In this document: in pieces, positions 1-29,813 of the stretch
How the letters are laid out: every line of letters starts with the position of its first letter
Numbering within the stretch: position 1 is the first letter of the stretch
IMG/VR virus record: IMGVR_UViG_3300030104_000562
Span: 1 to 35,050 of that record
Reading direction: 5' to 3' (one strand)
DNA length: 35,050 bases
DNA from: a virus
The notes under the pieces: generated by a model
Seen by the model: the letters and a program-made list of their open reading frames with translations, nothing else
Databases searched by the model: none
What the model was told of the DNA's origin: nothing
Program-made: the position numbers and the translations under genes

Positions 1-101
1 TAAAGCTGTAAACGCAGTACATTTACCTACTCCGCCTTCAACAATGTATGTATTTAACATTTTGTTCCTTTCATTCGTTATTGTTTATTATTTATTTTTT
101 T
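1..101. repeat. Terminal overlap, copy 1 (circle closure)
   Basis: This stretch repeats at 34950-35050 with 100 of 101 bases identical. The only difference is base 3 (a) against 34952 (g). It marks the point where a circular contig was cut. Bases 1-60 are a second copy of the first 20 codons of the leftward glycosyltransferase-like gene (start codon at 60), so they are not an extra gene. The mismatch changes Leu codon 20 from CTA to TTA, which is synonymous. Whether virions carry a true terminal repeat cannot be decided from this. Confidence 0.93.
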
Positions 102-3100
102 TTCAATTCTTCTATTTCTTCTGATAATTCTTGTATTGCTTTTACTAACATAGGTATTAATGCACCCTCTGCTATTCTTTGTCTACCATCTAAAGTATCT
201 TCTTCTTGCCACATATCAAAACCGTCTTTTAATTCTGGGTGATTGTCTATTGCTTGTTTTACTTCTTGTGCAATAAATCCATGATTGATTTTATCATTAT
301 TGTATCGTTTTTCAGAACCAACAACATGAGTTCTTAATTCTTCTGGAATATCTTTTTCTTTTCTCCATCTATAGGTTACAGGTCTTAAATCATTTATAAA
401 ACTTAAACCAGCGGTATCATCTTGAATATCTTCTTTTAATCTTTGATCTGATGGTGCTGTTATAGAAGTTGCACCAAAAGCAATTCTTGAATCTAAGCCA
501 ACATTACCAAAAGTCATGGCGTTGGCTATACTTGCAACACTAAAACCTATTGATATAGTGTTACTTGTTCCAGCTGCATCAGCACAAGTATCATAACCAA
601 GAAATACATTATTACCACCTGTTGTGTTTTCTTCTCCAGCACTCCTACCTATAGCTGTATTACAACAACCTGTTGTATTATTTTTTAATGCTTCGTTACC
701 TATAGCAGTATTTAAACATCCTGTAGTATTATCTTCTAAAGCTGTTTCTCCAAGAGCAGAATTTCTTTCTCCTGTTGTATTAGCTAATAAAGCATTTGCA
801 CCCAAAGCTACGTTACATCCACCTGTCGTGTTAGCACATAATGAATTTAAACCTACAGCACTATTTCTTTCACCTGTAGTAGTTTTATGTAAGGCTTGTC
901 TTCCAAGTCCTACGTTAAAATCTGCTGATGTGTTTTCAAATAAAGCAGAATGACCAACAGCAACGTTACCAGCACCTGTGGTAAGTTCTTGCATTGCACT
1001 TTTTCCAATAACTATATTACAGTTTGCTGTGGTGCCTGATACACCAGCTTCTCTACCTATAAATATATTTTGGCAACCAGTAGTAATTGCTTTTCCAGCT
1101 TCAGTACCTACAGCTGTATTGTCTGCACCTGTTGTATTAGCATTTAAAGCTAAAGAACCTACTGCTACATTAGTACCACCTGTTGTGTTAGCAAATAAAG
1201 CATCTCTACCAACTGCAACATTTTGACTAGCTGTTGTATTAGCACATAAAGCATTATCTCCAACTGCAACATTAAAAGTTCCTGTTGTTGTCAATCTCAT
1301 TGTATTATCACCGACTGCTGTATTACTGTTACCAGTGGTGTGACTACATAAAGCATTATAACCAACAGCGGTATTAGCAAATCCTGTTGTGTTAGCTGTT
1401 AGAGTACTTTCACCAACTCCTGTATTATGATTAGATGTTGTACTAGCATCTAAAGAATACGCACCTATTGCTGTGTTTCCAGCTCCTGTGCTGTTTGTTT
1501 TTAAAGCACCAGAGCCAAGAGCTGTATTATTACTTGCTGTAGTGTTAGCACACATAGCTTCTTTACCAACTGCTGTGTTTTCAGTTCCTGTCGTATTTGC
1601 ACCTAACGCATACCAACCAACTGCTGTATTATTATCTGCTGTAGTACTTAAAAGTAAAGCAGCTCTTCCTAAAGCTGTATTATTATCTCCTGTTGTATTA
1701 GTAAAAAGAGCTTGTTGTCCAACAGCTGTATTTTGACATCCTGTTGTAGTAGATTTTGCAGCACTAGCTCCAACTGCTGTATTACAAGATGCTGTAGTGT
1801 TAGCATTTAATGCTTCTTTTCCTAATACTGTGTTTGCAGTTCCTGTTGTGTTAGAAATCATAGATTGATGACCAACTGATGTATTATCATTTGCTGTAGT
1901 ATTTTGTTGTAAAGAATCCTTCCCAATTCCAATATTCCTAGAACCAGTAGTGTTTACATATAAAGATGCTGGACCTATTCCTACATTGTGAAAAGCTGTT
2001 GTATTATTATATAAAGCATCTTTACCTATTGCAGTATTTTCAGCACCAGTTGTATTATTTTCTAAAGTTTGATAACCAATACCAGTATTAGAAGAACCTG
2101 TTGTATTATCTTTTAAAGAACTTTTTCCTAATGCTGTATTGTTACTTGCTGTTATATTAGATAATAAAGCACCACATCCTATTCCTGTATTTGATGCACC
2201 AGATGTATTAGCGGATAAAGCACTTGCACCAATAGCTGTATTTGATGCACCAGATAAAGAACCATCATCTAAAGCTGTATCTCCTAAAGCGACATTACCT
2301 GTTCCTGTTGGATAGTTACCATCTAGTTTAATTGTGCCACTTGCTATATCTAAATTACCAGTACCAGTTATACTATTTGAATTTAAGTCTAAGTTACCAC
2401 CAAGTTGAGGTGAACTGTCGTCAACAACATTTGCTATTCCTGGTGAAATAGCTACCCAAGACGAACCATTGTAAAATTTTAAATTACTATCTCCAGTTAC
2501 AAAAGCTAGATCTCCAGCATCTAAACTTGAAGTAGGATTTGAAGATGTAACTCTATATCTTTCTGCAAAACTATTTACGCCAGTTATATTAGCAGCAACA
2601 GTTGCCATGTTAGTTACATTGGTAGAAGTACCTAAATTATTCATTGCAGTAACATTTGCTGAAGTACCAAGTACATTCATGTCATTAACTACATCTGCTG
2701 TAGCTAGTGTGTTCATATCTGATACAACATCCGCTGTAGCTAATGTATTCATATCAGTTACTACATCACTTGTTCCAAGTGTATTCATATCTGCAACCAC
2801 ATCTGTAGTTGCTAAAATATTCATATCATTAACTACATCTGTTGTAGCTAGTATTGCCATGTCAGCTACTACTGCACTAGCAGATAAAGTATTAATATTA
2901 GTTTGTTCAGATGAAGTTGGTTTTAAACTTTGCCATGTAGAACCTGTGTAATTTTTCATTACATTATCTGTAGAATTAAAATATAAAGCTCCAGTTAATA
3001 AAGCATTACCATCATTATCTGTAGATGGATCAGAAGATTTAGCACCTAAGTATCTGTCATCAAAACTATCAAAACTAGCTGCTGCATTAGTTTCAGAAGT

Positions 3101-3910
3101 TGCAGCGGCAGTTGCAGAGTTAGCAGATGCAGTTGCACTATTTGCTGAAGCTGTTGCAGAATTAGCACTAGCTGTAGCTGAGTTTGCAGAAGCTGTTGCT
3201 GAAGTAGACGCTGCATTAGCTGAAGTGGTTGCACTAGCTGCATCAACAATTAAATCCCATTTAGCTGAATCTGTATTTGTTGTAAGCGGTTGTGAACCAG
3301 AAGATGTATGTGCTGTGTTTGCTAAAAAAATATTATTTGTACTTGTGTCTTTTACTAAATCTCTAACTTGATAAGCAGTTGATGCGGACCAATTACCTTT
3401 AAAAGTTCCTAGTTCTTGTACTACTGCTAATTCTCCAGAACCATCAAAAGATAAAACTTTATTAGCTCTATCTGTTGAACCTACAGTAAACTCTGTAGAT
3501 GTCATTGTGTTTGTTCTTGATAATTTAAGTGATCTGTCTACTTCCTCTTGAACCTGTTGAGTGGTCATGGTTGCACGATCCAAACCCTCTTCGTGAGATT
3601 CCGCAGGGAATGGATCATTAGCAATATAATCTATTGCTTGAGTTTGCGGAACTTCTCTAATGATCACAACTGTTTCACCAGACGCTGGAGTATTACCAGA
3701 TGTAAAAGTTATTGAACCTCCACTAGCATCTCCTGCACCAGCTACTGTATAGTGAGTAGTTAAAGTCTTAACAGTTTCAGCACCTGTGCTGTCTGTTCTA
3801 ATAATTACAATTAAATCTGAGTCTGCAAATATTTTATATCCATAAGCAAATTGGGTTGTACTCCCATTACCAGAGTAGGAATTCTTTACTGTAGTTGAAG
3901 ATACTGTCAT
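92..3910 (-). CDS. Tail fibre protein, T7-type N terminus, S74 self-cleaving C terminus
   Basis: A 1272-residue fibre. Residues 1 to about 150 match the T7 gp17 N-terminal (Phage_T7_tail) pattern that anchors the fibre to the tail. Then come Ala/Ser/Asn-rich heptads, eight 12-residue DVV-x-DMN-type repeats, and about 34 repeats of 17 residues of the form NTAVGxxALxxNTTGxx. The C terminus, from about residue 1153 (SDQRLK...), is an intramolecular chaperone of peptidase family S74, which trims itself after trimer assembly. It ends in a Glu/Lys coiled coil. It is the last structural gene before the circle junction. The fibre probably reads the host receptor. The many antisense ORFs across it are by-products of the repeats. 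Confidence 0.93.
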   Translation of the reverse strand: MTVSSTTVKNSYSGNGSTTQFAYGYKIFADSDLIVIIRTDSTGAETVKTLTTHYTVAGAGDASGGSITFTSGNTPASGETVVIIREVPQTQAIDYIANDPFPAESHEEGLDRATMTTQQVQEEVDRSLKLSRTNTMTSTEFTVGSTDRANKVLSFDGSGELAVVQELGTFKGNWSASTAYQVRDLVKDTSTNNIFLANTAHTSSGSQPLTTNTDSAKWDLIVDAASATTSANAASTSATASANSATASANSATASANSATASANSATAAATSETNAAASFDSFDDRYLGAKSSDPSTDNDGNALLTGALYFNSTDNVMKNYTGSTWQSLKPTSSEQTNINTLSASAVVADMAILATTDVVNDMNILATTDVVADMNTLGTSDVVTDMNTLATADVVSDMNTLATADVVNDMNVLGTSANVTAMNNLGTSTNVTNMATVAANITGVNSFAERYRVTSSNPTSSLDAGDLAFVTGDSNLKFYNGSSWVAISPGIANVVDDSSPQLGGNLDLNSNSITGTGNLDIASGTIKLDGNYPTGTGNVALGDTALDDGSLSGASNTAIGASALSANTSGASNTGIGCGALLSNITASNNTALGKSSLKDNTTGSSNTGIGYQTLENNTTGAENTAIGKDALYNNTTAFHNVGIGPASLYVNTTGSRNIGIGKDSLQQNTTANDNTSVGHQSMISNTTGTANTVLGKEALNANTTASCNTAVGASAAKSTTTGCQNTAVGQQALFTNTTGDNNTALGRAALLLSTTADNNTAVGWYALGANTTGTENTAVGKEAMCANTTASNNTALGSGALKTNSTGAGNTAIGAYSLDASTTSNHNTGVGESTLTANTTGFANTAVGYNALCSHTTGNSNTAVGDNTMRLTTTGTFNVAVGDNALCANTTASQNVAVGRDALFANTTGGTNVAVGSLALNANTTGADNTAVGTEAGKAITTGCQNIFIGREAGVSGTTANCNIVIGKSAMQELTTGAGNVAVGHSALFENTSADFNVGLGRQALHKTTTGERNSAVGLNSLCANTTGGCNVALGANALLANTTGERNSALGETALEDNTTGCLNTAIGNEALKNNTTGCCNTAIGRSAGEENTTGGNNVFLGYDTCADAAGTSNTISIGFSVASIANAMTFGNVGLDSRIAFGATSITAPSDQRLKEDIQDDTAGLSFINDLRPVTYRWRKEKDIPEELRTHVVGSEKRYNNDKINHGFIAQEVKQAIDNHPELKDGFDMWQEEDTLDGRQRIAEGALIPMLVKAIQELSEEIEELKKK
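569..2296 (-). repeat. About 34 tandem 17-residue (51-bp) repeats in the tail fibre
   Basis: Codons between 2296 and 569 form about 34 consecutive units of 51 bp. The consensus is NTA(V/I)GxxAL..NTTGxx; Asn at position 1 and Gly at position 5 are nearly invariant, and the Thr-Thr of NTTG is frequent. The first unit has 18 residues and the last is cut short. The units differ from each other at DNA level, so this is an old, diverged array rather than a recent expansion. A repeating beta fold in a trimeric shaft is likely. Unit number could vary between strains by recombination. Confidence 0.9.
2588..2875 (-). repeat. Eight 12-residue (36-bp) repeats in the tail fibre
   Basis: Exactly 288 bp encode eight 12-residue units of the form (D/A)VV-x-DM-N-x-L-(A/G)-T-x, for example DVVNDMNILATT. 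The hydrophobic spacing suggests a helical or coiled shaft segment. It lies between the Ala/Ser heptads (about 3103-3210) and the 17-residue array. Confidence 0.85.
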
Positions 3911-3927
3911 ATTACTATTCCTATATA

Positions 3928-6900
3928 CTATTTATTACTTTGTTCAACATTTTTAATAATTTGTAAACCTTTTTGAGCAAGACCAATTCTAGTCTTGTAA
4001 AGGTCATCTATTAAATCTCTCTTCTCTTCTGCAGTAAAGAGTGTACCATCCTCTTTCATTTTTGCATTGTATATAACCTTTATATCTTTTGATAGTTCTT
4101 TCATACCTTTTTGTATATCTAAAACTGCCATTATATCAAAATTAACTTTCTTAGATTCTTTTAAATATCCATCTATATCTCCTATCTTATCCAGATATTC
4201 TACTGTATTCAATATGGTTTTGTATGGTTTAAGTGATTCATAAAATACTTGTATTGATTTAGAATATCCATAGACATCTTTAGCTTGAAATACTCTAATT
4301 CCAGGTATTTTTGTTAATGGATCTTCTGGTTTAATTGGATCATCTATAAGTCCACCCTTTATTGCTATAGTGTTAATAGCTTCTTTAGCCATTCTACCAA
4401 CTGAACCAAAATAAGAATCATAAATATTTTCTACATATATTGGATTTGCAAAATAATTATCAGCTCCAACCATAGTTGCTAAATTTTCTGATAATGCTTT
4501 TATAGTTGGATTTGTATACTCTGTAGAATAATAAGAGTTAAGCATATCTTTTGGAGCATCTGGTGGTAAAATTGGAGCTTCTCTAAATATACTATAGTCA
4601 AATTGATTTTCTATAAAAGGTCTTAAAAATGTTGGAATTGGAGTATAACCTTTTGCGTGTTCTTTTAAAAATTCTTTTGTATATTTCATAAATTCTTGTT
4701 TTTCATTTTTTCTCATGTAGTCATAAACTTTTTCAGTAAGATTAGAAAAGAAAGTACCTACTTCAAATCCTTTTGGAAAAAATCTTCCTTCACCATTTAC
4801 TTTTGTATAGTATTTATTATTTCTAATGTAGTCTGGAAGTTCTTCAAAATCTTCATCAAGCTCACCATTATCTTTTACATTTGAAAAATAAAAATATGTT
4901 GTTGGTAATACTACAGTAAGTCCAATCATACTTAAAAATTTTGTAGGTCTATCTCTAAATGCTTCATAGGCTTTTACAGATCCTTGTATTCTTGCATTAA
5001 AAAATGGAACACCTTTATTTATTCTTGCACCTGCAGTTCCTTTTTTTGAATAATCTAATAAATCTTTTGATTCAAATCCTGCTCTTTCTAAAGCATCTCT
5101 TTCTGATAAACCTTTTTTCTTAGCTGCTTTAAGAACTTTATTTAACATAGCAACTCTAGTAGCTTCTTCTGAAATTTCTGTTACATATCTAAACTGTCCT
5201 AATATTGGTGTAGAGTATTCATTTCTCATAACACCTTTATTTAATATTTGATGAACAGGTGTATCATACACTGTTCTATCTAATGATCTTAATGTACTAA
5301 AAGCTGCACCACTTTTTAAATAATTTTTATATGCTTGTGTAGCTCTTTTAGGATCTTTAAAAACAACATGAAATATTCCTAATATTGAATCTACAATAGG
5401 TAGCCATCCTACTTTTGATAAAAAAGTTGCGTTCATTGTATCTTTAAAGAAGTTTGGCAAAGCAAAATCTGGAGTTACGATTGCACCTGTTCTTAAAAAT
5501 CTAGTTGGTGCTGTTAAAAATCTTACTATAAAATCCATACTTGGATTATCCATAACTCTAAAAGCAGTAACTAAATCTTCACCAACTTCCCATACTTCAT
5601 ATTTACCAGTTTTTGTATTTCTAAAAGAAATAGAGGTAGCATCTGGATAAACAACTTCTTGTCTAAATATAGAAAGTTCTTCAACACCTTTATCTGAAAG
5701 TTTGTCTAATGCTTCTTTATCAAAAAATTTTTCTAATTCTTTTCTTTGAACTTTAATTGGTTTTAAATCACCTTTTTTCTTTCTTATCCATTTAAGTGCT
5801 TCCGAATCTTTTTTTTGAGCTTGTAAAATAGTATTAATAAAATCATTCTTAGCTTTGTTAAGCTCTGTCATTCTTACAATGTAATCTGTATTTTTAACAA
5901 TACTTTCAAATGGATCTATAATTTTTGCTTTTGATCCTTTTAATTGTTTAAATGGATTACTTGATCCTTTTATAAATCCAGATTCAAATGGTTTAGGTAA
6001 TTCTCTAGCCATAGGAATATAGTTTTTATTTATTTCTCTAAATGCGTTGTATGCTTCTTTAGTAATCAATCCTCCATCAAAAGCATATTTTAAAACAGAT
6101 TCTTGATATGCGTCTATTTTTTTTGCAGCTTGTTCATAGGTAATCATCTTACCTGTTTCTGGATCTTTAACTTTTTCTTTGCTATATTTTTTCAAAAATA
6201 TTTCTGCGTTTGGAATATCAACACCAGTTTCTTTATTTCTTTTTGCAAGAGTTACTGCGTGTCTGTTTGTTAAATAGGTGCTTAACAAATTTAATTCAGT
6301 TTTATCTTTTACAAAAGGTTTGACAATAGATATTAAAGAAGGTCCAGTTTCACCTAGTGTTTTAAAATCAAGAGTTCCAAATTCAATGAAGTGTGCTGAT
6401 CTACCCTTCATACCTTCTTGTAATCTTAGAAATTCGTAGTCATTTAATTTTTCAATTCCTGTTTTAGTTTTAACATTTATTTCTTTCAATGCTTCTAATA
6501 CAGGATATTTTTGATCTATTGCTTTAATTACAAATTTTCTTTTAGAAGTTTTAGCTGATTGTTTTACAGTTTCTTTAATTTGCTGTAGTGTAATTGGAAG
6601 TTTAGTTGTTTCAAAAGAAATATTCTCTGCAGCTTTACTTGCAATAGGATCTTCAAATCTTGGTTTCTCTATAACTTTTATATCTTGTTTTGGTATTTCT
6701 ATTTTTTTAGCATCTTTTATTTCGTAAGCTCTGACAGTTACATTGTTTGATAATATATCTTCTCTTACTGTTCTATTTTTTGCTAAATCTAAAGCTACAT
6801 CTGTAGGGTTTTTTCCATAATCAACAAAAATTTGTTTTGCTTTTTTTTCTGCTTTTTTCTTAGGTAATCTAATATTAAATAAACTAAACAATAAAGAAGT

Positions 6901-7740
6901 AGAAGCAAACTCTCCCATACTTGGTATTTCTTCATCTAATAATAATCCTGTTCCTTGATAACCAATTATTTGAGCTGCAGTTCTTGATATATATCTTTCA
7001 GCTAATGCTTTACCACCAGGAAGTTTTAGCATAGGTAAAGCTAGTGATGCAGAAAACTTTGCACCTTCTTTAACACCTTCCATTAAAGTTTCTTCTAATA
7101 ATATTTTCATAACATCAGAAGGTTTACCTTCATCTTGATTTTCTAAAACTTTTAAAATAGTTGCTCTAGTTGTGGTAGGTATCATTGCACCTGTAAATCC
7201 AGCACCTAATTGACCTGCTGGTAAACCAATTAAAGCACTTCCAGCATAAATTGGAGAATCAACAACTAATGTTCCTAGTGTTGTAAGAAACTCCTCGGTC
7301 CAAGTATAATCTTCTGGTCTTGGTAATTTTAATGCTTCTGGAGTACCCTCACCTTTTGCTGCTCGTTTGTATAAATTCCACTGATTTGTTCCTAAAATTT
7401 GTTCAGCCATATAGTCTCCATCAAATTTTTCTCCTACTACAGTTTCTTTAATATCTTTTTTTAGTTCTTTTAATTGGTCAAATCTAGTTTGTGCTGTTTG
7501 ATAAGACATCTCCTCTTCTGATATTATAATACCTTTTCTAGATAAATAATCTCTAGCAACATTGCTAACGTAATCTTTTACAATTTTAGTATCTGGTTCG
7601 AATTTAAATTCATTAGCAATTTCTTGATTGGTAAATCCACCTTCTTGAAGTTCTTTTATTTTGCCTTGTTTCCAAGCTGTAATGTCTTTTTGTTCAAAAC
7701 CACCTTCTTGTAATAGTGTTTGTTCTTCAAGTAGATTCAT
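3928..7740 (-). CDS. Large internal virion protein (T7 gp16 position), LPD38-like region
   Basis: At 1270 residues this is one of the two longest proteins. It occupies the T7 gp16 position, between the gp15-like protein and the fibre, so it is probably an internal core protein ejected with the DNA. Residues of about 720-930 (PTRFLR.G, PDFALPN..KD, then a long helical stretch ending in a hydrophobic segment, SMIGLTVVLPTTYFYF) resemble large polyvalent-protein domain LPD38. The N terminus has two LQEGGF-type short repeats. I see no lytic transglycosylase motif like that at the N terminus of T7 gp16. It starts 2 bases from the end of the upstream gene, so the two are probably co-translated. Confidence 0.8.
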   Translation of the reverse strand: MNLLEEQTLLQEGGFEQKDITAWKQGKIKELQEGGFTNQEIANEFKFEPDTKIVKDYVSNVARDYLSRKGIIISEEEMSYQTAQTRFDQLKELKKDIKETVVGEKFDGDYMAEQILGTNQWNLYKRAAKGEGTPEALKLPRPEDYTWTEEFLTTLGTLVVDSPIYAGSALIGLPAGQLGAGFTGAMIPTTTRATILKVLENQDEGKPSDVMKILLEETLMEGVKEGAKFSASLALPMLKLPGGKALAERYISRTAAQIIGYQGTGLLLDEEIPSMGEFASTSLLFSLFNIRLPKKKAEKKAKQIFVDYGKNPTDVALDLAKNRTVREDILSNNVTVRAYEIKDAKKIEIPKQDIKVIEKPRFEDPIASKAAENISFETTKLPITLQQIKETVKQSAKTSKRKFVIKAIDQKYPVLEALKEINVKTKTGIEKLNDYEFLRLQEGMKGRSAHFIEFGTLDFKTLGETGPSLISIVKPFVKDKTELNLLSTYLTNRHAVTLAKRNKETGVDIPNAEIFLKKYSKEKVKDPETGKMITYEQAAKKIDAYQESVLKYAFDGGLITKEAYNAFREINKNYIPMARELPKPFESGFIKGSSNPFKQLKGSKAKIIDPFESIVKNTDYIVRMTELNKAKNDFINTILQAQKKDSEALKWIRKKKGDLKPIKVQRKELEKFFDKEALDKLSDKGVEELSIFRQEVVYPDATSISFRNTKTGKYEVWEVGEDLVTAFRVMDNPSMDFIVRFLTAPTRFLRTGAIVTPDFALPNFFKDTMNATFLSKVGWLPIVDSILGIFHVVFKDPKRATQAYKNYLKSGAAFSTLRSLDRTVYDTPVHQILNKGVMRNEYSTPILGQFRYVTEISEEATRVAMLNKVLKAAKKKGLSERDALERAGFESKDLLDYSKKGTAGARINKGVPFFNARIQGSVKAYEAFRDRPTKFLSMIGLTVVLPTTYFYFSNVKDNGELDEDFEELPDYIRNNKYYTKVNGEGRFFPKGFEVGTFFSNLTEKVYDYMRKNEKQEFMKYTKEFLKEHAKGYTPIPTFLRPFIENQFDYSIFREAPILPPDAPKDMLNSYYSTEYTNPTIKALSENLATMVGADNYFANPIYVENIYDSYFGSVGRMAKEAINTIAIKGGLIDDPIKPEDPLTKIPGIRVFQAKDVYGYSKSIQVFYESLKPYKTILNTVEYLDKIGDIDGYLKESKKVNFDIMAVLDIQKGMKELSKDIKVIYNAKMKEDGTLFTAEEKRDLIDDLYKTRIGLAQKGLQIIKNVEQSNK

Positions 7741-7741
7741 A

Positions 7742-9340
7742 TTAATTATCTAAAACACTTCCTTTCATTACATTTTCTTTAGTAACTTTTTTTTTCTTTC
7801 TTTTGTCTATACTACCATCTTCTTTTACATAAAATTCAGTAATTCTATTTATGTAATCGCTTGGTGTTTCATCTACCTTTCTTTTAAAAAAAGTATTTTC
7901 TAGTACTGGTTCTTCTTTTTTTGCAGTATTAAGTAAAGCATCTTTAACTTGTGATTTAGTAGGAGTGTAATCTAAAATATCTTTAGCAATATAATTATCT
8001 GATGTTGAATCTAATAGTTTAGCTACAGGTATATTGTTTCTTATTCCATCTATAAATTTACGATGCATATCTTGTCTAAAAGAACTTAATCTATTATTAT
8101 AGTTTTCATCAAAATATTTAGAGCTTACTGATCCTTCAATCAAAGGAATTACTTTATCCATAAAATTAAAAAATTGTTTGTTAGCTTCTATTAATTGTGA
8201 ATTTTGTTGATTATCAAAAATGTTATTAAAAAAATTATCATCATCTAAATTAATAGATCCATCACCTATTCTTTCTGTAATACTTTTAGCTTCTGTTTCT
8301 CCAGCTAATAAAAATTTTTCAAAAGGATGTTTGATTTCATTGTTTAAAATTTTTTTAATAATTTTATCATTAGTTAAATAATTATTGTCTTTACTAATTT
8401 TATTATCAATAACTTTATTATTTAATTCAGTAATTTGATTATCATATTCTTCATTACCTGTTGAATAATATAAAGATATTTCATCTGGTTTTATTCCTAA
8501 TGGAGCATCTGGTTTATTTCCTTTTAGTACAGCTACAACTTTCTTTTTAGATTCTATTAAATTAATATTAGTTTGATAATTTACCATATTTTTTTGAAAA
8601 GTAGATAGCTCTCTAAGTTCTTTTTTTAATTTTAATCTATCTTCTCCAGTAATACTTGAATAATTTTTAGGATCATCTAAAGATGCTAATGCTGCAAAAG
8701 CATTATCATTTGCAATCTTTCTTACCATTTCTGTTTCAACAAGAGCTGGTAATTTTCTTTTATAAATTTCTAAATCTGCTTCAGAAATTAATCCCTCATT
8801 AACTAAACTTTGATATTCTGCGGTTATAGATTCTGCTAAAATTGCAAAATTAAATGAATTTTTATCTTCTACAGCAGTTGTAATTTTATTTGTAACTACA
8901 CTATTAACTTGATCAACTCTTGTTTTAACCATGTTAGCTCTAGTTTGTTTTAAAATATTATTAACATAAGATGGTTTGTTAGATGAAATATTTAAATCAA
9001 AATATCTTTGAATGTAATTATTACTTGCTTTTGATTTGTATTTATCAACTACTTGTTTGTAACCAGCATTAAAAAAATTAACACCTTCATCTGGTGTAGA
9101 TTTTAATTTAGCTTGTTCTTTTATTTCTAATAATTCTTGATTGGCATCTGCAATTAATTTTCCACCTTCTACTTTATTAGATATTTCTTTTTCTTTAACA
9201 TAAAATTGTGTTACCGCATTAGCAGCAGGTAATAATGCTCCAGCTAAACTGCTTTTAGGTGAAATTTGTATATTACTTTTTACAGCTCCAACTTCAGCAG
9301 TGGGTGCAACTTGAGATGTAAATGTAGGTATCTTTGGCAT
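7742..9340 (-). CDS. Internal virion protein (T7 gp15 position)
   Basis: A 532-residue, Lys/Asn/Glu-rich, mostly helical protein. It lies between the HNH-like gene and the large gp16-position protein, where T7-like podoviruses encode the middle internal core protein. The N terminus (MPKIPTFTSQVAPTAEVGA) is a short Pro/Thr-rich segment, followed by long helical stretches. No catalytic motif is visible. The start codon shares one base with the end of the upstream gene (9340). The assignment rests on position and composition more than on sequence recognition. Confidence 0.7.
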   Translation of the reverse strand: MPKIPTFTSQVAPTAEVGAVKSNIQISPKSSLAGALLPAANAVTQFYVKEKEISNKVEGGKLIADANQELLEIKEQAKLKSTPDEGVNFFNAGYKQVVDKYKSKASNNYIQRYFDLNISSNKPSYVNNILKQTRANMVKTRVDQVNSVVTNKITTAVEDKNSFNFAILAESITAEYQSLVNEGLISEADLEIYKRKLPALVETEMVRKIANDNAFAALASLDDPKNYSSITGEDRLKLKKELRELSTFQKNMVNYQTNINLIESKKKVVAVLKGNKPDAPLGIKPDEISLYYSTGNEEYDNQITELNNKVIDNKISKDNNYLTNDKIIKKILNNEIKHPFEKFLLAGETEAKSITERIGDGSINLDDDNFFNNIFDNQQNSQLIEANKQFFNFMDKVIPLIEGSVSSKYFDENYNNRLSSFRQDMHRKFIDGIRNNIPVAKLLDSTSDNYIAKDILDYTPTKSQVKDALLNTAKKEEPVLENTFFKRKVDETPSDYINRITEFYVKEDGSIDKRKKKKVTKENVMKGSVLDN

Positions 9341-20148: not shown

Positions 20149-20340
20149 CTAATGAACTAATTTGCTGTAATTTTCTTCTCCAAAAGGTGTGTATTCAAAT
20201 CCTAGTCTCATCATAATGTAAGATGTAAATAGTTGTGCAGAGTCATGATTAGGCATACCAAAGAATTTAATTACAACATTGTTGGTTTCTTCTTCAATAA
20301 AGCAAACACAATCTAGATCTTCTGATGAAAAATAGTTCAT
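20149..20340 (-). CDS. Small acidic protein upstream of terL
   Basis: 63 residues from the ATG at 20340: an acidic, aromatic N terminus (MNYFSSEDLDCVCFIEEE) and a mixed alpha/beta remainder (VVIKFFGMPNHDSAQLF, then a Met-rich helix). An ATG three codons upstream (20349) is equally possible. Neither has a clear ribosome site. The open frame continues to 20520 only by using TTG, and that part does not look like protein, so I excluded it. It ends 2 bases before terL. Function unknown. Confidence 0.6.
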   Translation of the reverse strand: MNYFSSEDLDCVCFIEEETNNVVIKFFGMPNHDSAQLFTSYIMMRLGFEYTPFGEENYSKLVH

Positions 20341-20576
20341 ATACCACATATAGTTTATTTTGTGTAGAATGAAAACAAAAGAAGTCTGTGTGTATAAAGG
20401 TGTCCTCGAGTCCCATGTATATATATATAATAAACGTGTAGCGTTCTGTGAGGTATACCCCCTAAGCAAATCTAAAAAAGTAGATCCTAGTCTGTAAAAA
20501 TATACAATAAAGTGTTTCAATAATAAAAGATTATTAGTAATGATTAATAAAAATTCTTTTTAATGGTCCTTGTACA

Positions 20577-20593
20577 TTAGAATAATTCTAAAC
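20577..20593. promoter_or_regulatory. Operator-like dyad, copy 1
   Basis: TTAGAATAATTCTAA is a perfect 7+1+7 dyad, followed by AC. The same 17 bases recur at 20866-20882 with one mismatch. The paired sites, 289 bases apart, flank most of the noncoding block. This spacing and symmetry fit a dimeric repressor or activator site. Confidence 0.6.
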
Positions 20594-20827
20594 CGAAGTA
20601 ATACGAGAACAGGAAAAAATTTTCTATAAATTAGGATAGCAACATTTCAACATAACTTCTTTCAATCTTCAACTTTAATCTTCTTTAATCTTTTAAAACT
20701 TCCCTTTCCTTTTTTACTTTGTTTAATTTTGTTTCTGTATTTTCTTTTGAATAGCTCTTTCATCATTAAATTTTTAAATTTTATCATATAAATTTGTTCT
20801 ACAAATGTATTGGTTTTGTGATCGAAA

Positions 20828-20857
20828 TGCAACACTTGTTGCCTGTTTGCAACACTT
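20828..20857. repeat. Direct repeat of TGCAACACTT, 20-bp period, with inverted half-site
   Basis: TGCAACACTT occurs at 20828-20837 and 20848-20857, two helical turns apart. Between them GTTGC (20838-20842) is the inverse of GCAAC, giving a GCAAC-ACTT-GTTGC dyad and then a third half-site. It lies just upstream of a consensus -10 box, so an activator or repressor site is likely. An origin iteron is the alternative. Confidence 0.55.
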
Positions 20858-20865
20858 ACGATAAC

Positions 20866-20882
20866 TTATAATAATTCTAAAC
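20866..20882 (+). promoter_or_regulatory. Rightward early promoter -10 overlapped by operator-like dyad, copy 2
   Basis: TATAAT (20867-20872) is a perfect sigma70 -10. No good -35 stands 17 bases upstream; the GCAACACTT repeats are there instead. The box is part of TTATAATAATTCTAA, the second copy of the dyad found at 20577. A protein bound to the dyad would block this promoter. It would drive the genes from 20964 on. Confidence 0.55.
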
Positions 20883-20963
20883 TATATGCGTCAATCTGTC
20901 TTATATATTTTATATAATTAATAAATATACAATTAGGTTATGTACAAAAAGAAAGGAAACAAT

Positions 20964-23386: not shown

Positions 23387-23621
23387 CTGTTTTATCTTTA
23401 AAGTTTTTTAAGTTTTTTAATAGTTTTATTTTGTTTTGTATAGTTACATTTTTATTGTTGTATAAACCTTTGTATTTTCTGGTCTTAGAATCTGTAGATT
23501 GAGATCCCCCATGAAATCTACAAAGCATACGTTTTGAAGTAGGGGTAAAATATCCTTTTGCACGACAACGCTTACCGCTTTGCTTGGATATACCCTCACA
23601 TCTTATCTTTATCTTTGGCAT
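23202..23621 (-). CDS. HGG-motif zinc-binding-like protein
   Basis: 139 residues. The N-terminal CEGISKQSGKRCRAKGYFTPTSKRMLCRFHGG (Cys8, Cys19, Cys34, His37) is the Cys/His plus HGG signature of small phage proteins that usually lie just before terminase genes. The rest is very basic. Its last 61 codons run through the terminase-small-subunit-like gene in another frame, and that part (Arg/Tyr-rich) may be passively fixed by the overlap. A probable DNA-binding accessory to packaging; this is inference. Confidence 0.6.
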   Translation of the reverse strand: MPKIKIRCEGISKQSGKRCRAKGYFTPTSKRMLCRFHGGSQSTDSKTRKYKGLYNNKNVTIQNKIKLLKNLKNFKDKTDEEIKRYIQDQEQLASQSNRYRTKYYTRHYLRWRNTPYRSQRHLKDQLDVFLQVLRSKSKV

Positions 23622-24303
23622 TACCTTTATAATCTAAATTATTTCTTTTGTTATATGCAACCTTCTCTCTGTATCTTGGATTACTATTCTTACTAATAGA
23701 TTTTAGAGCTTGTAAGATTTTTTGAGGGGGAACGTATGTCTTTTTCTCATTGGCAGCTAATTCCTGTTTTCTCTGAATGGCTAACTTAATATAATAAGGA
23801 TTGTTCTTATCCATTTGTAAGTCAACCAGGGGGAGCTTCGCTAAATTGTCAATTATTAATTGTTGATTACCTTTATAGTCTCTAATCACATCCTCAATAG
23901 GCTTATTGGTTATTGTATCTATTGTTTCTACTAATGTCTTTACATTTGAAACATTGGATGTTTCATTTTTATACATTGATGTTTCATTTTTATACATACC
24001 CTTCTCAAACTTAACAAACTTAGGGTTAATTTGATAGGTCTTACCAGACCTACCTTTTATAGTAGAGATCACATTTAATTTCGTAAGAGTTTGTAATGTT
24101 CTGTGAATTGTGGTCCTAGATAACTTGGTATCTTTTTGAATTGTAGAGTGCCTTAATCCTGCTCTATAATCGTTAGATTTCCAACAATATTTCATTAAAG
24201 ATAGATAAACAGACAGACAATTAGCCTTTTTAGACCCCCCAACCTTATCTAAATGGTGATAAAGTATGTATGTAAGCTGTAAAAATCCTCTAGTCTTTAG
24301 CAT
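23596..24303 (-). CDS. Winged-helix DNA-binding protein, possible replication initiator or regulator
   Basis: 235 residues. Residues of about 20-100 (LSVYLSLMKYCWKSNDYRAGLRHSTIQKDTKLSRTTIHRTLQTLTKLNVISTIKGRSGKTYQIN) form a clear winged helix: helix, turn, recognition helix, then a wing ending in Tyr-x-Ile-Asn. This layout is shared by phage replication proteins of the lambda O / RepA-N kind and by regulators. The middle carries a duplicated MYKNETS, whose DNA is a 20-bp direct repeat. The C terminus is basic. In lambda-type phages the origin lies inside such a gene, which makes the repeats interesting. Function not certain. Confidence 0.62.
   Translation of the reverse strand: MLKTRGFLQLTYILYHHLDKVGGSKKANCLSVYLSLMKYCWKSNDYRAGLRHSTIQKDTKLSRTTIHRTLQTLTKLNVISTIKGRSGKTYQINPKFVKFEKGMYKNETSMYKNETSNVSNVKTLVETIDTITNKPIEDVIRDYKGNQQLIIDNLAKLPLVDLQMDKNNPYYIKLAIQRKQELAANEKKTYVPPQKILQALKSISKNSNPRYREKVAYNKRNNLDYKGNAKDKDKM
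23947..23997. repeat. Tandem 21-bp repeat plus 8-bp dyad inside the winged-helix gene
   Basis: GATGTTTCATTTTTATACAT occurs at 23957-23976 and 23978-23997. The first copy is preceded by TGAAACAT (23947-23954), which pairs with ATGTTTCA (23958-23965) around a TGG centre. In protein this is MYKNETS twice. The combination of direct repeats and dyad inside an initiator-like gene resembles an iteron origin or an autoregulatory operator. Confidence 0.55.
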
Positions 24304-24667
24304 TACATAATTTTCTATGGTTTTCTTGGAGGTCTAGCAAGATAGATAGCCATTGGTTCTCGTTCATAACCTCAAACTCTGTCTGAGAGGTCGTAATTCT
24401 CTTGATGCGAAAGGTAAGGCTAGTCTGGGTCAATTTTTTATAAAATACTAAAAAGAGAGGTATATTTAGGCGACTAGCGACTATGTTTGCAAGGGTGGTA
24501 GCCTTCCATTTCTGTCCCTTGTCGAAGCAGGTTTCTAGAATGGCAAGTGGTTCATAACATTTAGGACAACACTCAATAGAATCTATATCAATCATGGCAA
24601 TACCATCGTATTTTCTATGCCAATCGTTATATACACCATTGGAAAATGCAAAAGTCCATCGTGCCAT
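24290..24667 (-). CDS. Unknown protein with C-x2-C motif
   Basis: 125 residues. The segment DGIAMIDIDSIECCPKCYEPLAILETCFDKGQKWKATTLANIVASRLNIPLFLVFYKK has an IDID strand, a CPKC knuckle (with another Cys before it), a LAILET strand and a basic helix. The strand order and acidic residues recall small nucleases, but the expected E-x-K is not present, so I do not assign an activity. It overlaps the winged-helix gene by 14 bases and shares a TAATG junction with the upstream gene. Confidence 0.55.
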   Translation of the reverse strand: MARWTFAFSNGVYNDWHRKYDGIAMIDIDSIECCPKCYEPLAILETCFDKGQKWKATTLANIVASRLNIPLFLVFYKKLTQTSLTFRIKRITTSQTEFEVMNENQWLSILLDLQENHRKLCNAKD

Positions 24668-25041: not shown

Positions 25042-25866
25042 CTAAACTCCACACATACCCTCATCACATAAATGGCTAAACATATCTAATTGCTTATCAT
25101 CTTCAGCTTTATTAAACTGTACTTCACTCAAAGGTTTACAAGACCTATGAACAAATATCTCTTCATCTTTTTTTCTTGTAATACTTCTAACTTTTGAATC
25201 AAAATCAACAGCTATTGCAAACTCTTTTGGTCTTTCTGTTTTCATAAAATACCAGTAAGCATCATTATGAAATGGACATACAATACACGCTGACTTTTCT
25301 GGCATAGGTACATTTTGTTTTTTTAAATAGTTAATACAATCTTGCCTTGACATATTCATTTCAATCAATGGATGTTTGTTTAAAATATATTTATCTCTTG
25401 CAGGTTTCATTCTTTGTACTTCATCAGTAGATATACCAATCCATTGCTCAACATACTTATCTTTAGGAAAGTGTTTACCTTTTTTAACACCACAAAGTTC
25501 TCTTATTTTTTTTCTTATTTCTTGTATTTTATACACATTCGTGCATTGACGCATGACCATACCTTTCTTACCAGTTATTTTATTTTGTGTAAAATATGGT
25601 GCATCAACAAAGTTAGTTGTATCTTTTGCAGCTAACATATCTTTCATAATATCTCCTTTTGAAACTACATAAACAGGATAAGGTAAAATTGATTTTAAAT
25701 ATTTTAAATATTTATTAACTGCTTCTGGTTCATTTTTTGTGTCTGCAAAGATTGCTGCCTGTGGCATGGGTAAATCTCCTTTAGCTGCCATGATTGCCAT
25801 CGTGGAGCTTTGTACTCCTGCACCTAAACTTATTACTGTTAATATTTTTTCTCTATCTTCCATCAT
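25042..25866 (-). CDS. N-type ATP pyrophosphatase (PAPS reductase-like)
   Basis: 274 residues. SLGAGVQSST (13-22) is the PP-loop of the adenine nucleotide alpha-hydrolase superfamily. The following AIFADTKNEPE strand, the CTNVYKI segment (Cys108) and WIGISTDEVQRMK match phage PAPS reductase-like enzymes. CIVCPFHND (Cys194, Cys197) and Cys residues near the C terminus could hold a metal or Fe-S cluster. The family adenylates a substrate in sulfur transfer or in nucleic acid modification. The substrate here is unknown. It lies in the early leftward operon, not with metabolic genes. Confidence 0.78.
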   Translation of the reverse strand: MMEDREKILTVISLGAGVQSSTMAIMAAKGDLPMPQAAIFADTKNEPEAVNKYLKYLKSILPYPVYVVSKGDIMKDMLAAKDTTNFVDAPYFTQNKITGKKGMVMRQCTNVYKIQEIRKKIRELCGVKKGKHFPKDKYVEQWIGISTDEVQRMKPARDKYILNKHPLIEMNMSRQDCINYLKKQNVPMPEKSACIVCPFHNDAYWYFMKTERPKEFAIAVDFDSKVRSITRKKDEEIFVHRSCKPLSEVQFNKAEDDKQLDMFSHLCDEGMCGV

Positions 25867-26611: not shown

Positions 26612-27526
26612 ATGATTATAAGAGAACAATTAAAAAAACACTTCATTAATTTCAATGGTGGCGAAGGGTTAGACCATTGGTCGCCAAGCAGCTCACAAAA
26701 CTTTACAAGATTAATTTGTAATTATTCTTTACCGCAAAAGTTAAGAAGAACTTTTAAGATAAGATACAAAGCACCATTTGGAAACTTAGTCAACAACACA
26801 GCTCAAAGATTAACCTGTGAAGTTTTATATAAAAAAGACAAGAAGATTACATTAGAGAACAAAAATTATGACGATATATTTCAACAAGAGTTAGATGAAA
26901 TAGATAAAGATAGTCCACCAGTAGATGACAAGGATAAACTTGCAAGAGAGATGATGATTAGTTTTGCACATCCTACAATCGAGAACATGAAAAAATGTGT
27001 TAAAGAAATATTTGGTGATGCAAAATTAGTTGCTGAAAGATATGTGTCTAGCAAAAGCAAAGACATGATCCATGATATTATTGGTCGTATAGATTATGAA
27101 AGCAATGACATCATAGGAGAAGCTAAAACTAAACCATCTACAATCAAAAAGAAAAGAGGTAAGGATGAATACTACATGGCAACAACGCAGCTACCTCTCG
27201 ATCCAGACCCAATGCACATTTCTCAAGTTGCGTTCTATTATCATTGCACACAAAAGAAACCTTTTTTGTTTTATGTAAATGAAAATGAATATAGAATATT
27301 TGATGACACGCATGATATGTTAAGACAAGATTATTTAAAAGAACAATACAATCTTATGACCCAAAGGTTAAAGTCATGGGAAGAGTTAATTGTTTTCTGT
27401 GAAGGTAACTTAGAGAAGTTAGCACACTTTGCAGAACCACCAGAATTAAATCATCCTTTTTATTATAGGGATTTAATAGACGATCAAAAAAAACAAATCA
27501 AAAAACTATGGGGGTTAGACGCATGA
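26612..27526 (+). CDS. RecB-like PD-(D/E)XK nuclease
   Basis: 304 residues. The nuclease core is GRID (Asp161), then IIGEAK (Glu170, Lys172), then HISQVAFYYH, whose Gln205-x3-Tyr209 matches the RecB-family QxxxY motif. Glu142 (LVAERYV) and the N-terminal YKAPFGNLVN segment fit the earlier motifs. Such enzymes (Cas4/AddB/phage exonuclease type) resect DNA ends. It is followed directly by an ERF annealing protein with a 4-base overlap, which is a standard exonuclease-annealase pair. Leader GAAAGGAAAT. Confidence 0.82.
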   Translation: MIIREQLKKHFINFNGGEGLDHWSPSSSQNFTRLICNYSLPQKLRRTFKIRYKAPFGNLVNNTAQRLTCEVLYKKDKKITLENKNYDDIFQQELDEIDKDSPPVDDKDKLAREMMISFAHPTIENMKKCVKEIFGDAKLVAERYVSSKSKDMIHDIIGRIDYESNDIIGEAKTKPSTIKKKRGKDEYYMATTQLPLDPDPMHISQVAFYYHCTQKKPFLFYVNENEYRIFDDTHDMLRQDYLKEQYNLMTQRLKSWEELIVFCEGNLEKLAHFAEPPELNHPFYYRDLIDDQKKQIKKLWGLDA

Positions 27527-28179
27527 AACTAAACATATATCAAAAATTACATAAAGCTGCTTGTGAAGCAGGAGGTGTAGCAAAAGGAAAGAAAGTTCCT
27601 GGTATGCACTTCAATCCTTTACAACATGATGAGGTGCAGAGGGTGGCAATGGAGTCATTACTAAACAATGGATTATATCCTATCTGTACTTACACTAACT
27701 ATGTTAAAGAAACTTTTATCATGGTTACTTGTTCAATGAGAATACATGACATCGAAGATCCTACAAGTCATGTAGATATTGAAGGATGTTCTGCAATGGG
27801 AAACTTAGATAAGTTTGGTACTGGTAATGGTATGTCTTATGCTAAGAAGTATGCTTTCTTAAATGCACTTAATTTAAAAACAGGTTTAGATAATGAGGAT
27901 GGCTACAAAGCAAAACCTTTTGAACAACCTAAACCTACCAATAAAATTCCACAACAAAAACCAAGTGGTACAGCTCATGCCAATGTCGATATGGACATTG
28001 ATATGAATCAAGTAAGAGATGCCATAAAATCTATTAATGATATTTATGCTCTTAGGAAATTTAGAAAAGAAAATCCTAGCTTATTTGATCCTAATAATAA
28101 TGTTCGTGTGTACAGACAAGTTACAGATTTGTATGATACACATGAAACACAACTAAACCAACAAGGAGTTACACAATGA
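27523..28179 (+). CDS. erf: ERF-family single-strand annealing protein
   Basis: 218 residues from the ATG at 27523, which overlaps the nuclease stop as ATGA; an upstream in-frame ATG at 27508 would add five residues. The ERF core is clear: KLHKAACEAGGVAK...MHFNPLQHDEVQRVAMESLLNNGLYPICTY, VTCSMRIHD, then GTGNGMSYAKKYAFLNALNLKTGLDNEDG. The Tyr-Ala-x-(K/R)-Tyr and Gly-Leu-Asp-Asn-Glu-Asp pieces are diagnostic. The C terminus is a Pro/Gln linker and a small helical domain. It anneals ssDNA made by the adjacent nuclease, for recombination-dependent replication or repair. Confidence 0.85.
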   Translation: MKLNIYQKLHKAACEAGGVAKGKKVPGMHFNPLQHDEVQRVAMESLLNNGLYPICTYTNYVKETFIMVTCSMRIHDIEDPTSHVDIEGCSAMGNLDKFGTGNGMSYAKKYAFLNALNLKTGLDNEDGYKAKPFEQPKPTNKIPQQKPSGTAHANVDMDIDMNQVRDAIKSINDIYALRKFRKENPSLFDPNNNVRVYRQVTDLYDTHETQLNQQGVTQ

Positions 28180-29300: not shown

Positions 29301-29813
29301 ATGACCATAAATGTAAGCACACATTATAATAAACACATAAAAAACTTAGATCAAAATAATTTTATATACAAAGTTAAGAAAGCATTTTACCTTCTTACGA
29401 ACCAAGAAGAAAGATTATATGAGGTAGGGTTCTCGGAAGGTTTTTTATATGCTGCAAATGTTTTGCAAAAAGAAAAGATACAAGACAGTAATGTAAAAAA
29501 GATTATTGGTTATAAGATTTCAAGACCTAGACCATCTGACGTTCAAAGTATTATTAATAAAGTGTGCGTACATTTTGAAGTACATAAAGAAACTCTAATG
29601 AATAAAAGTAGAACTACAGATATAGTTCGAGCAAGAAATGTAATTCATAATTTATTGCATGAAAAATATCACATGAACCTAACAGATATAGGTAGATATT
29701 TTGGACAGGATCATACCACAGTTTTACATTCTATTGAAATGAAAAAAGATCAAAAAAGATTTTGGTCGCCAGAACAATCTTTATGGCAAGAGTTTGAACA
29801 ACTTATTATTTAA
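29301..29813 (+). CDS. Stand-alone DnaA domain IV protein
   Basis: 170 residues. Residues 78-150 form the DnaA C-terminal origin-binding domain: VQSIINKVCVHFEV...LMNKSRTTDIVRARNVIHNLL...MNLTDIGRYFGQDHTTVLHSI, with the signature DHTTV at 137-141 and the Arg-rich basic loop KSRTTDIVRAR. The AAA+ ATPase domain is absent. The first 75 residues are a helical extension not like DnaA. The family use would be to bind DnaA boxes; in a phage without polymerase genes, it may recruit or divert host DnaA-dependent initiation. Leader TAGGGGATTT. Its TAA interlocks with the stop of the opposing gene. Confidence 0.85.
   Translation: MTINVSTHYNKHIKNLDQNNFIYKVKKAFYLLTNQEERLYEVGFSEGFLYAANVLQKEKIQDSNVKKIIGYKISRPRPSDVQSIINKVCVHFEVHKETLMNKSRTTDIVRARNVIHNLLHEKYHMNLTDIGRYFGQDHTTVLHSIEMKKDQKRFWSPEQSLWQEFEQLII

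Follow-up and report, generated by a model that had tools for sequence, protein, structure and literature searches.

A stand-alone DnaA DNA-binding domain, a conserved DnaA-like box in the late-operon leader and a candidate lambda-type origin in an HTVC010P-type pelagiphage

Stand-alone "DnaA C-terminal" proteins of about 90–190 aa are common among the structures predicted for uncultured Caudovirales (BFVD/UniProt; A0A6J5MPW1 and A0A6J7X590 are examples). In pelagiphages, DnaA was listed among the proteins common to all HTVC010P-related genomes (Chen et al. 2019; PMC6811365). According to an excerpt of PMC10504331, the HTVC010P-type pelagiphages, for which the family Ubiqueviridae has been proposed, rank among the most abundant marine viruses. 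The same excerpt states that P. skadi has no genes for DNA polymerase, RNA polymerase, helicase or primase, that it depends on the polymerases of its host, a reliance predicted for other phages of the HTVC010P type too, and that it encodes a lambda-like helicase loader, whose gene is not named there. Neither the gene for a DnaA-like protein (here DnaA-C) nor the lack of polymerases is new for phages of this type.

DnaA-C of the genome described here was compared with these systems. The uncultured Caudovirales proteins, like DnaA-C, have no room for an AAA+ domain, but show low identity to it (15–36%) and carry other extensions. The DnaA-like genes of HTVC010P-type phages (HTVC203P gp22, Skadi1_28, Greip_gp42) represent the same gene in the same synteny (48–86% identity); the DnaA-C studied is another member of this set, nearest to that of P. 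skadi, with no essential difference. Domain IV of cellular DnaA (E. coli, 1j1v; M. tuberculosis, 3pvp) has a similar fold and similar box contact residues, whereas DnaA-C lacks AAA+ and domains I/II, in place of which it has a helical N-terminus.

The analyzed DNA (the window) is a virus record of 35,050 bp. Its gene content and gene order are those of HTVC010P-type pelagiphages, which are viruses of SAR11 bacteria, and by these it is a near-complete genome of this type (Ubiqueviridae); the window ends in the tail/lysis region, where a small stretch may be missing. The features relevant to this study are summarized in Table 1. The replication proteins comprise an O-like initiator, a putative nuclease and an Erf-type annealing protein. 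As claimed in a preliminary description of this DNA, and as already known for HTVC010P-type phages, no polymerase, helicase or primase was found among the main ORFs of the window in Pfam and PHROGs scans. Rfam and tRNA scans over the window gave no matches.

Table 1. Positions of the analyzed features in the window.
Feature	Position	Strand	Remarks
First gene of the late (leftward) operon	20149–20349	-	upstream of terL
DnaA-box-like site TTATACACA	20389–20397	-	late-operon leader; syntenic in relatives
Conserved TATATATAC(ATGGG) element	20417–20425	-	resembles a -10; box lies 19 bp downstream; -35 not recognised
Lambda-O-like winged-helix replication initiator (putative)	23596–24303	-	wHTH 8–100; disordered linker about 103–133; helical C-terminus 136–220
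Inverted half-copy ATGTTTCA	23947–23954	-	adjoins iteron 2; read from sequence
Iteron 2	23957–23976	-	identical copy; 21-bp spacing
Iteron 1, ATGTATAAAAATGAAACATC	23978–23997	-	
Putative nuclease	26612–27526	+	first of the conserved genes in the rightward operon, which ends with the DnaA-C gene
Erf-like single-strand annealing protein	27508–28179	+	same rightward operon as the nuclease and DnaA-C genes
DnaA-C gene	29301–29813	+	stand-alone DnaA domain IV protein, 170 aa
N-terminal extension of DnaA-C	29301–29531	+	residues 1–77; three predicted helices and linker
DnaA domain IV (Bac_DnaA_C)	29544–29738	+	residues 82–146; basic loop K102/R104/R112; DHTTV 137–141

Several further observations concern the gene content of these genomes. 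A PAPS-reductase-like gene (25042–25866, minus strand) is inserted in the O-like operon and has, among isolates, a counterpart only in HTVC034P. The ORF at 24290–24667 (minus strand) encodes a highly conserved 125-aa protein, present in 12/12 genomes including HTVC028P, for which no family match was found; its conserved cysteines and D/E/K residues are, by eye, suggestive of a nuclease. A pelagiphage contig binned in a Woesearchaeota MAG (PBPJ01000001.1) constitutes contamination of an archaeal genome record.

The DnaA-C ORF is a real gene that starts with ATG. In a profile search, its product was matched significantly only by PF08299 (E-value 4.4e-19; 68.7 bits, compared to a cut-off of 31.5), with no match to an AAA+ domain, and the PF08299 match was retained in all 59 members of an alignment of non-redundant relatives. 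The complete domain IV, including DHTTV, that had been read from the sequence in the preliminary description was thus confirmed, as was the helical extension replacing AAA+: the AlphaFold2 model contains three N-terminal helices (residues 5–13, 18–30 and 34–57), a low-confidence linker (about 58–77), a confidently predicted domain IV (78–149; pLDDT about 91) and a C-terminal helix (161–169). The best PDB matches obtained with Foldseek were to 3pvp (the M. tuberculosis DnaA DNA-binding domain on box 2; TMt 0.75) and also to 1j1v (E. coli domain IV on a DnaA box; TMt 0.78). The N-terminal extension varies between clades in the family alignment. No match of this extension to the PDB was obtained by sequence or by fold.

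Residues K102, R104, R112, D137, H138, T139, T140 and K148 of DnaA-C are kept in the family alignment. They align with E. coli K397, R399, R407, D433, H434, T435, T436 and K443, respectively, which are known as DnaA-box contacts from the 1j1v complex. Conservation of these positions extends to 57–59 of the 59 relatives, the R399 position being occupied by R in 56 and by K in 3. Since R432 is replaced by Q and P423 by S/T, the specificity of DnaA-C may differ from that of host DnaA. No pattern of covariation between box variants and contact residues was seen by eye across isolates.

The DnaA-C gene is present, annotated as DnaA-like, in 10/10 virulent relatives checked, and was detected by tblastn in 19 Pelagibacter phage records, many of which are annotated "DNA replication initiation (DnaA)", "DnaA-like" or "Bac_DnaA_C". 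Human-gut "phage" records were rejected as stand-alone relatives: the two that were checked, labelled "Bacteriophage sp.", contain full-length DnaA with AAA+ and are probably bacterial DNA.

The O-like gene, labelled "putative transcriptional regulator" in relatives, is present in 11/11 virulent genomes. The window copy is matched weakly by O-like replication initiators (PHROG 678; E-value 5e-4). Of 40 relatives, up to 37 gave hits to replication-initiation PHROGs (best E-value 1.4e-8). The structure model (pLDDT 77) has a low-confidence linker between a winged helix and a helical C-terminal domain; a search for a specific PDB relative returned generic winged helices only (E-values above 0.01). 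The linker DNA of the window contains two identical 20-bp copies of a repeat, followed by an inverted half-copy. Direct repeats spaced at 21–22 bp (score of 10 or more) were identified in 42 of 52 non-redundant O-like genes, all at nt 280–370, i.e. in the linker, compared to a mean of 0.63 (maximum 4) of 52 codon-shuffled genes. The repeat sequence is clade-specific (ATGTATAAAAATGAAACATC, ATGGGTATTAAAGAACAC, AGATAGCCGTT or ATGTATAAAAAAGATCA). This is what would be expected if the repeats act as DNA and not through the encoded protein, and a period of 22 bp, not being a multiple of three, cannot arise from a protein repeat. Within most individual genomes, repeats of equal period at other places score similarly or higher, so that one genome offers no proof and the case is carried by the fixed position across relatives.

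Iterons within the linker of the initiator gene are the layout of ori-lambda. The O-like protein resembles lambda O in its N-terminal winged helix, linker and helical C-terminus as well as in the direct repeats within the linker; it differs in its repeat set (two clear iterons and one inverted half-copy for the window), in the 21–22-bp spacing and in the absence of a recognised P gene. By this analogy, the repeats most likely constitute a lambda-type iteron origin, a candidate for HTVC010P-type pelagiphages in general, and the O-like protein is most likely what recognises it. No lambda-P-like or DnaC-type loader was recognised in the Pfam and PHROGs scans; some members of the O-like family match DnaD-like loader profiles.

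DnaA boxes are not enriched in these genomes. The sequence TTWTNCACA occurs 7 times in the window, compared to 7 expected from a Markov null, and canonical boxes occur 38 times in ten relatives, compared to about 77 expected from a simple Markov null, a depletion that may stem from coding bias. A cluster of DnaA boxes acting as the phage origin was rejected, since there is no genome-wide enrichment. A search upstream of the O-like gene gave no DnaA boxes.

One site nevertheless stands out against this background. The TTATACACA site lies upstream of the small gene preceding terL, and the form TTATNCACA was found in the sense orientation in 35 of 70 non-redundant late leaders and in none in antisense (shuffle mean 2.0, maximum 5; shuffling does not correct for shared ancestry, and many of the IMG/VR loci are fragments). 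When no motif was presupposed, TTATNCACA was the commonest 4-N-4 gapped word (35/69 leaders; null 1.2), and in stricter leader sets (10/24 and 8/14) it came second, behind T-runs. The exact box is missing from half of the leaders; a relaxed form is present in 50/69 (null 2.1), and 19/69 lack even this form. In upstream regions other than the late leader (13 syntenic ones), the TTATNCACA form is near background. Of the two regions named in the preliminary description for a DNA-binding test, 20341–20963 indeed contains this conserved box, whereas 23947–23997 holds the O-gene iterons and no DnaA boxes. A second box (TTTTNCACA), in the divergent region upstream of 26110/26612, was discarded as a candidate: it is present in 12/47 loci, is variable and is absent from the window.

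The leader TATATATACATGGG element is -10-like, with no recognisable -35 and with a conserved C-rich element upstream. The box lies 7–55 bp downstream of the -10-like element, at a spacing that varies across leaders. The strongly conserved layout of 20411–20480 (minus strand) consists of a T-run, the C-rich element around TATAC, TATATATACATGGG and a CA-rich leader; an inverted GGGGGTATACC form of the C-rich element occurs in the window and in some relatives.

HTVC028P, an integrase-bearing relative, has neither the DnaA-C nor the O-like gene. In HTVC028P-like leaders the box and the TATATATAC element are both absent (53/53 in each case), and HTVC028P-like contigs, many of which are short, yielded neither a DnaA-C nor an O-like gene. 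In HTVC028P itself the replication/regulation region (1–8831) is replaced by one with genes for a 498-aa HTH protein and an XRE-like regulator. The joint absence of the box, the DnaA-C gene and the O-like gene probably reflects one evolutionary change. This contrast fits a model in which DnaA-C acts at the late leader, yet it points equally to the O-like protein, since features that are absent together do not single out DnaA-C.

The explanation that we favour, although tentatively and at somewhat less than even confidence, is that DnaA-C is a DNA-binding accessory or regulatory protein of the late leader, with lambda-type initiation carried out by the O-like protein. It draws together the computed observations, i.e. 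(i) the domain, (ii) the conservation of its contact residues, (iii) the iterons, (iv) the conservation of the box and (v) the joint absence from the sister clade. The O-like protein would bind the 21–22-bp iterons that lie within the gene encoding it, in the linker part, and would then pass the origin on to DnaB and Pol III of the host. DnaA-C, produced from the recombination operon, would bind the single oriented DnaA-like box in the late-operon leader, and might set or time the switch from replication to late expression. A precedent for the idea is provided by Caulobacter, in which full-length DnaA is a transcription factor (Hottes et al. 2005, via PMC9437464), and by the use of sites for the host cell-cycle regulator CtrA in some Alphaproteobacteria phages, as stated in an excerpt of PMC9437464; the same excerpt of this survey reports no asymmetry in predicted DnaA sites.

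Activation, repression and replication coupling are alike compatible with this explanation. A position 7–55 bp downstream, at variable spacing, is unusual for a classical activator and would be more in keeping with repression, a roadblock or an element coupled to replication. As a further counterpoint, host DnaA could be the ligand of the box.

In the preliminary description, DnaA-C was regarded as the entry point of the phage to host replication. On this view, DnaA-C would be a second initiator that binds phage DNA at the box of the late leader, next to the AT-rich TATATATA stretch, or a helper of the O-like protein, its N-terminal helices recruiting host DnaB. The box adjoining an AT-rich stretch does resemble a minimal DnaA-type origin, the DnaA-C gene sits in the nuclease/annealing operon, and the helicase loader mentioned for P. 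skadi in the excerpt of PMC10504331 has no named gene; no lambda-P-like loader was identified in the family scans. However, this role is weakened by the O-like initiator and its in-gene iterons, which account for origin recognition, by the absence of boxes upstream of the O-like gene and of any genome-wide enrichment, by the 3.5 kb separating the box from the iterons, and by the clade-variable N-terminus, which matches no helicase-binding domain. We consider it unlikely. DnaA-C also lacks the AAA+ ATPase domain of a DnaA initiator proper, and the window lacks an origin cluster of DnaA boxes; judged from the sequence, it is probably not an origin-recognition initiator.

It is more doubtful still that DnaA-C serves host takeover, stopping host initiation by binding boxes at host oriC or at DnaA-regulated promoters while a low number of phage boxes avoids self-interference. 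Intact contact residues without AAA+ would make it a natural competitor, and boxes in the ten relatives fall below expectation; however, that depletion was measured against a simple Markov null and could be due to coding bias, the boxes of the window are not depleted, and the conservation of a box in the late leader of the phage itself implies that the target is on phage DNA. An assignment of the leader site to packaging, to an RNA leader function or to host DnaA, with DnaA-C binding something else, would suit the proximity of terL and the make-up of the leader, which is CA-rich and G-poor and contains other conserved elements (the C-rich one around TATAC and TATATATACATGGG), but is similarly improbable, given that the most conserved word of these leaders is the DnaA consensus and that the family encodes a DnaA-box reader.

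In the literature on HTVC010P-type pelagiphages we found no worked-out account of how replication starts without polymerase, helicase and primase genes. The regulatory explanation favoured above makes concrete predictions, namely a lambda-type origin at 23947–23997 and a DnaA-C binding site at 20389–20397, and with the latter, the many phage stand-alone DnaA C-terminal proteins that have no assigned function gain a first target open to testing. A bolder form of it, which we regard as possible but rather unlikely, is that phages have turned the DnaA DNA-binding domain, without its ATPase, into a dedicated early-to-late switch factor, which would read one box in the late leader and tie late expression to replication, itself started at a lambda-type origin in the O-like gene. 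If true, one of the sea's most abundant groups of viruses would have made an early-to-late switch from a DnaA domain.
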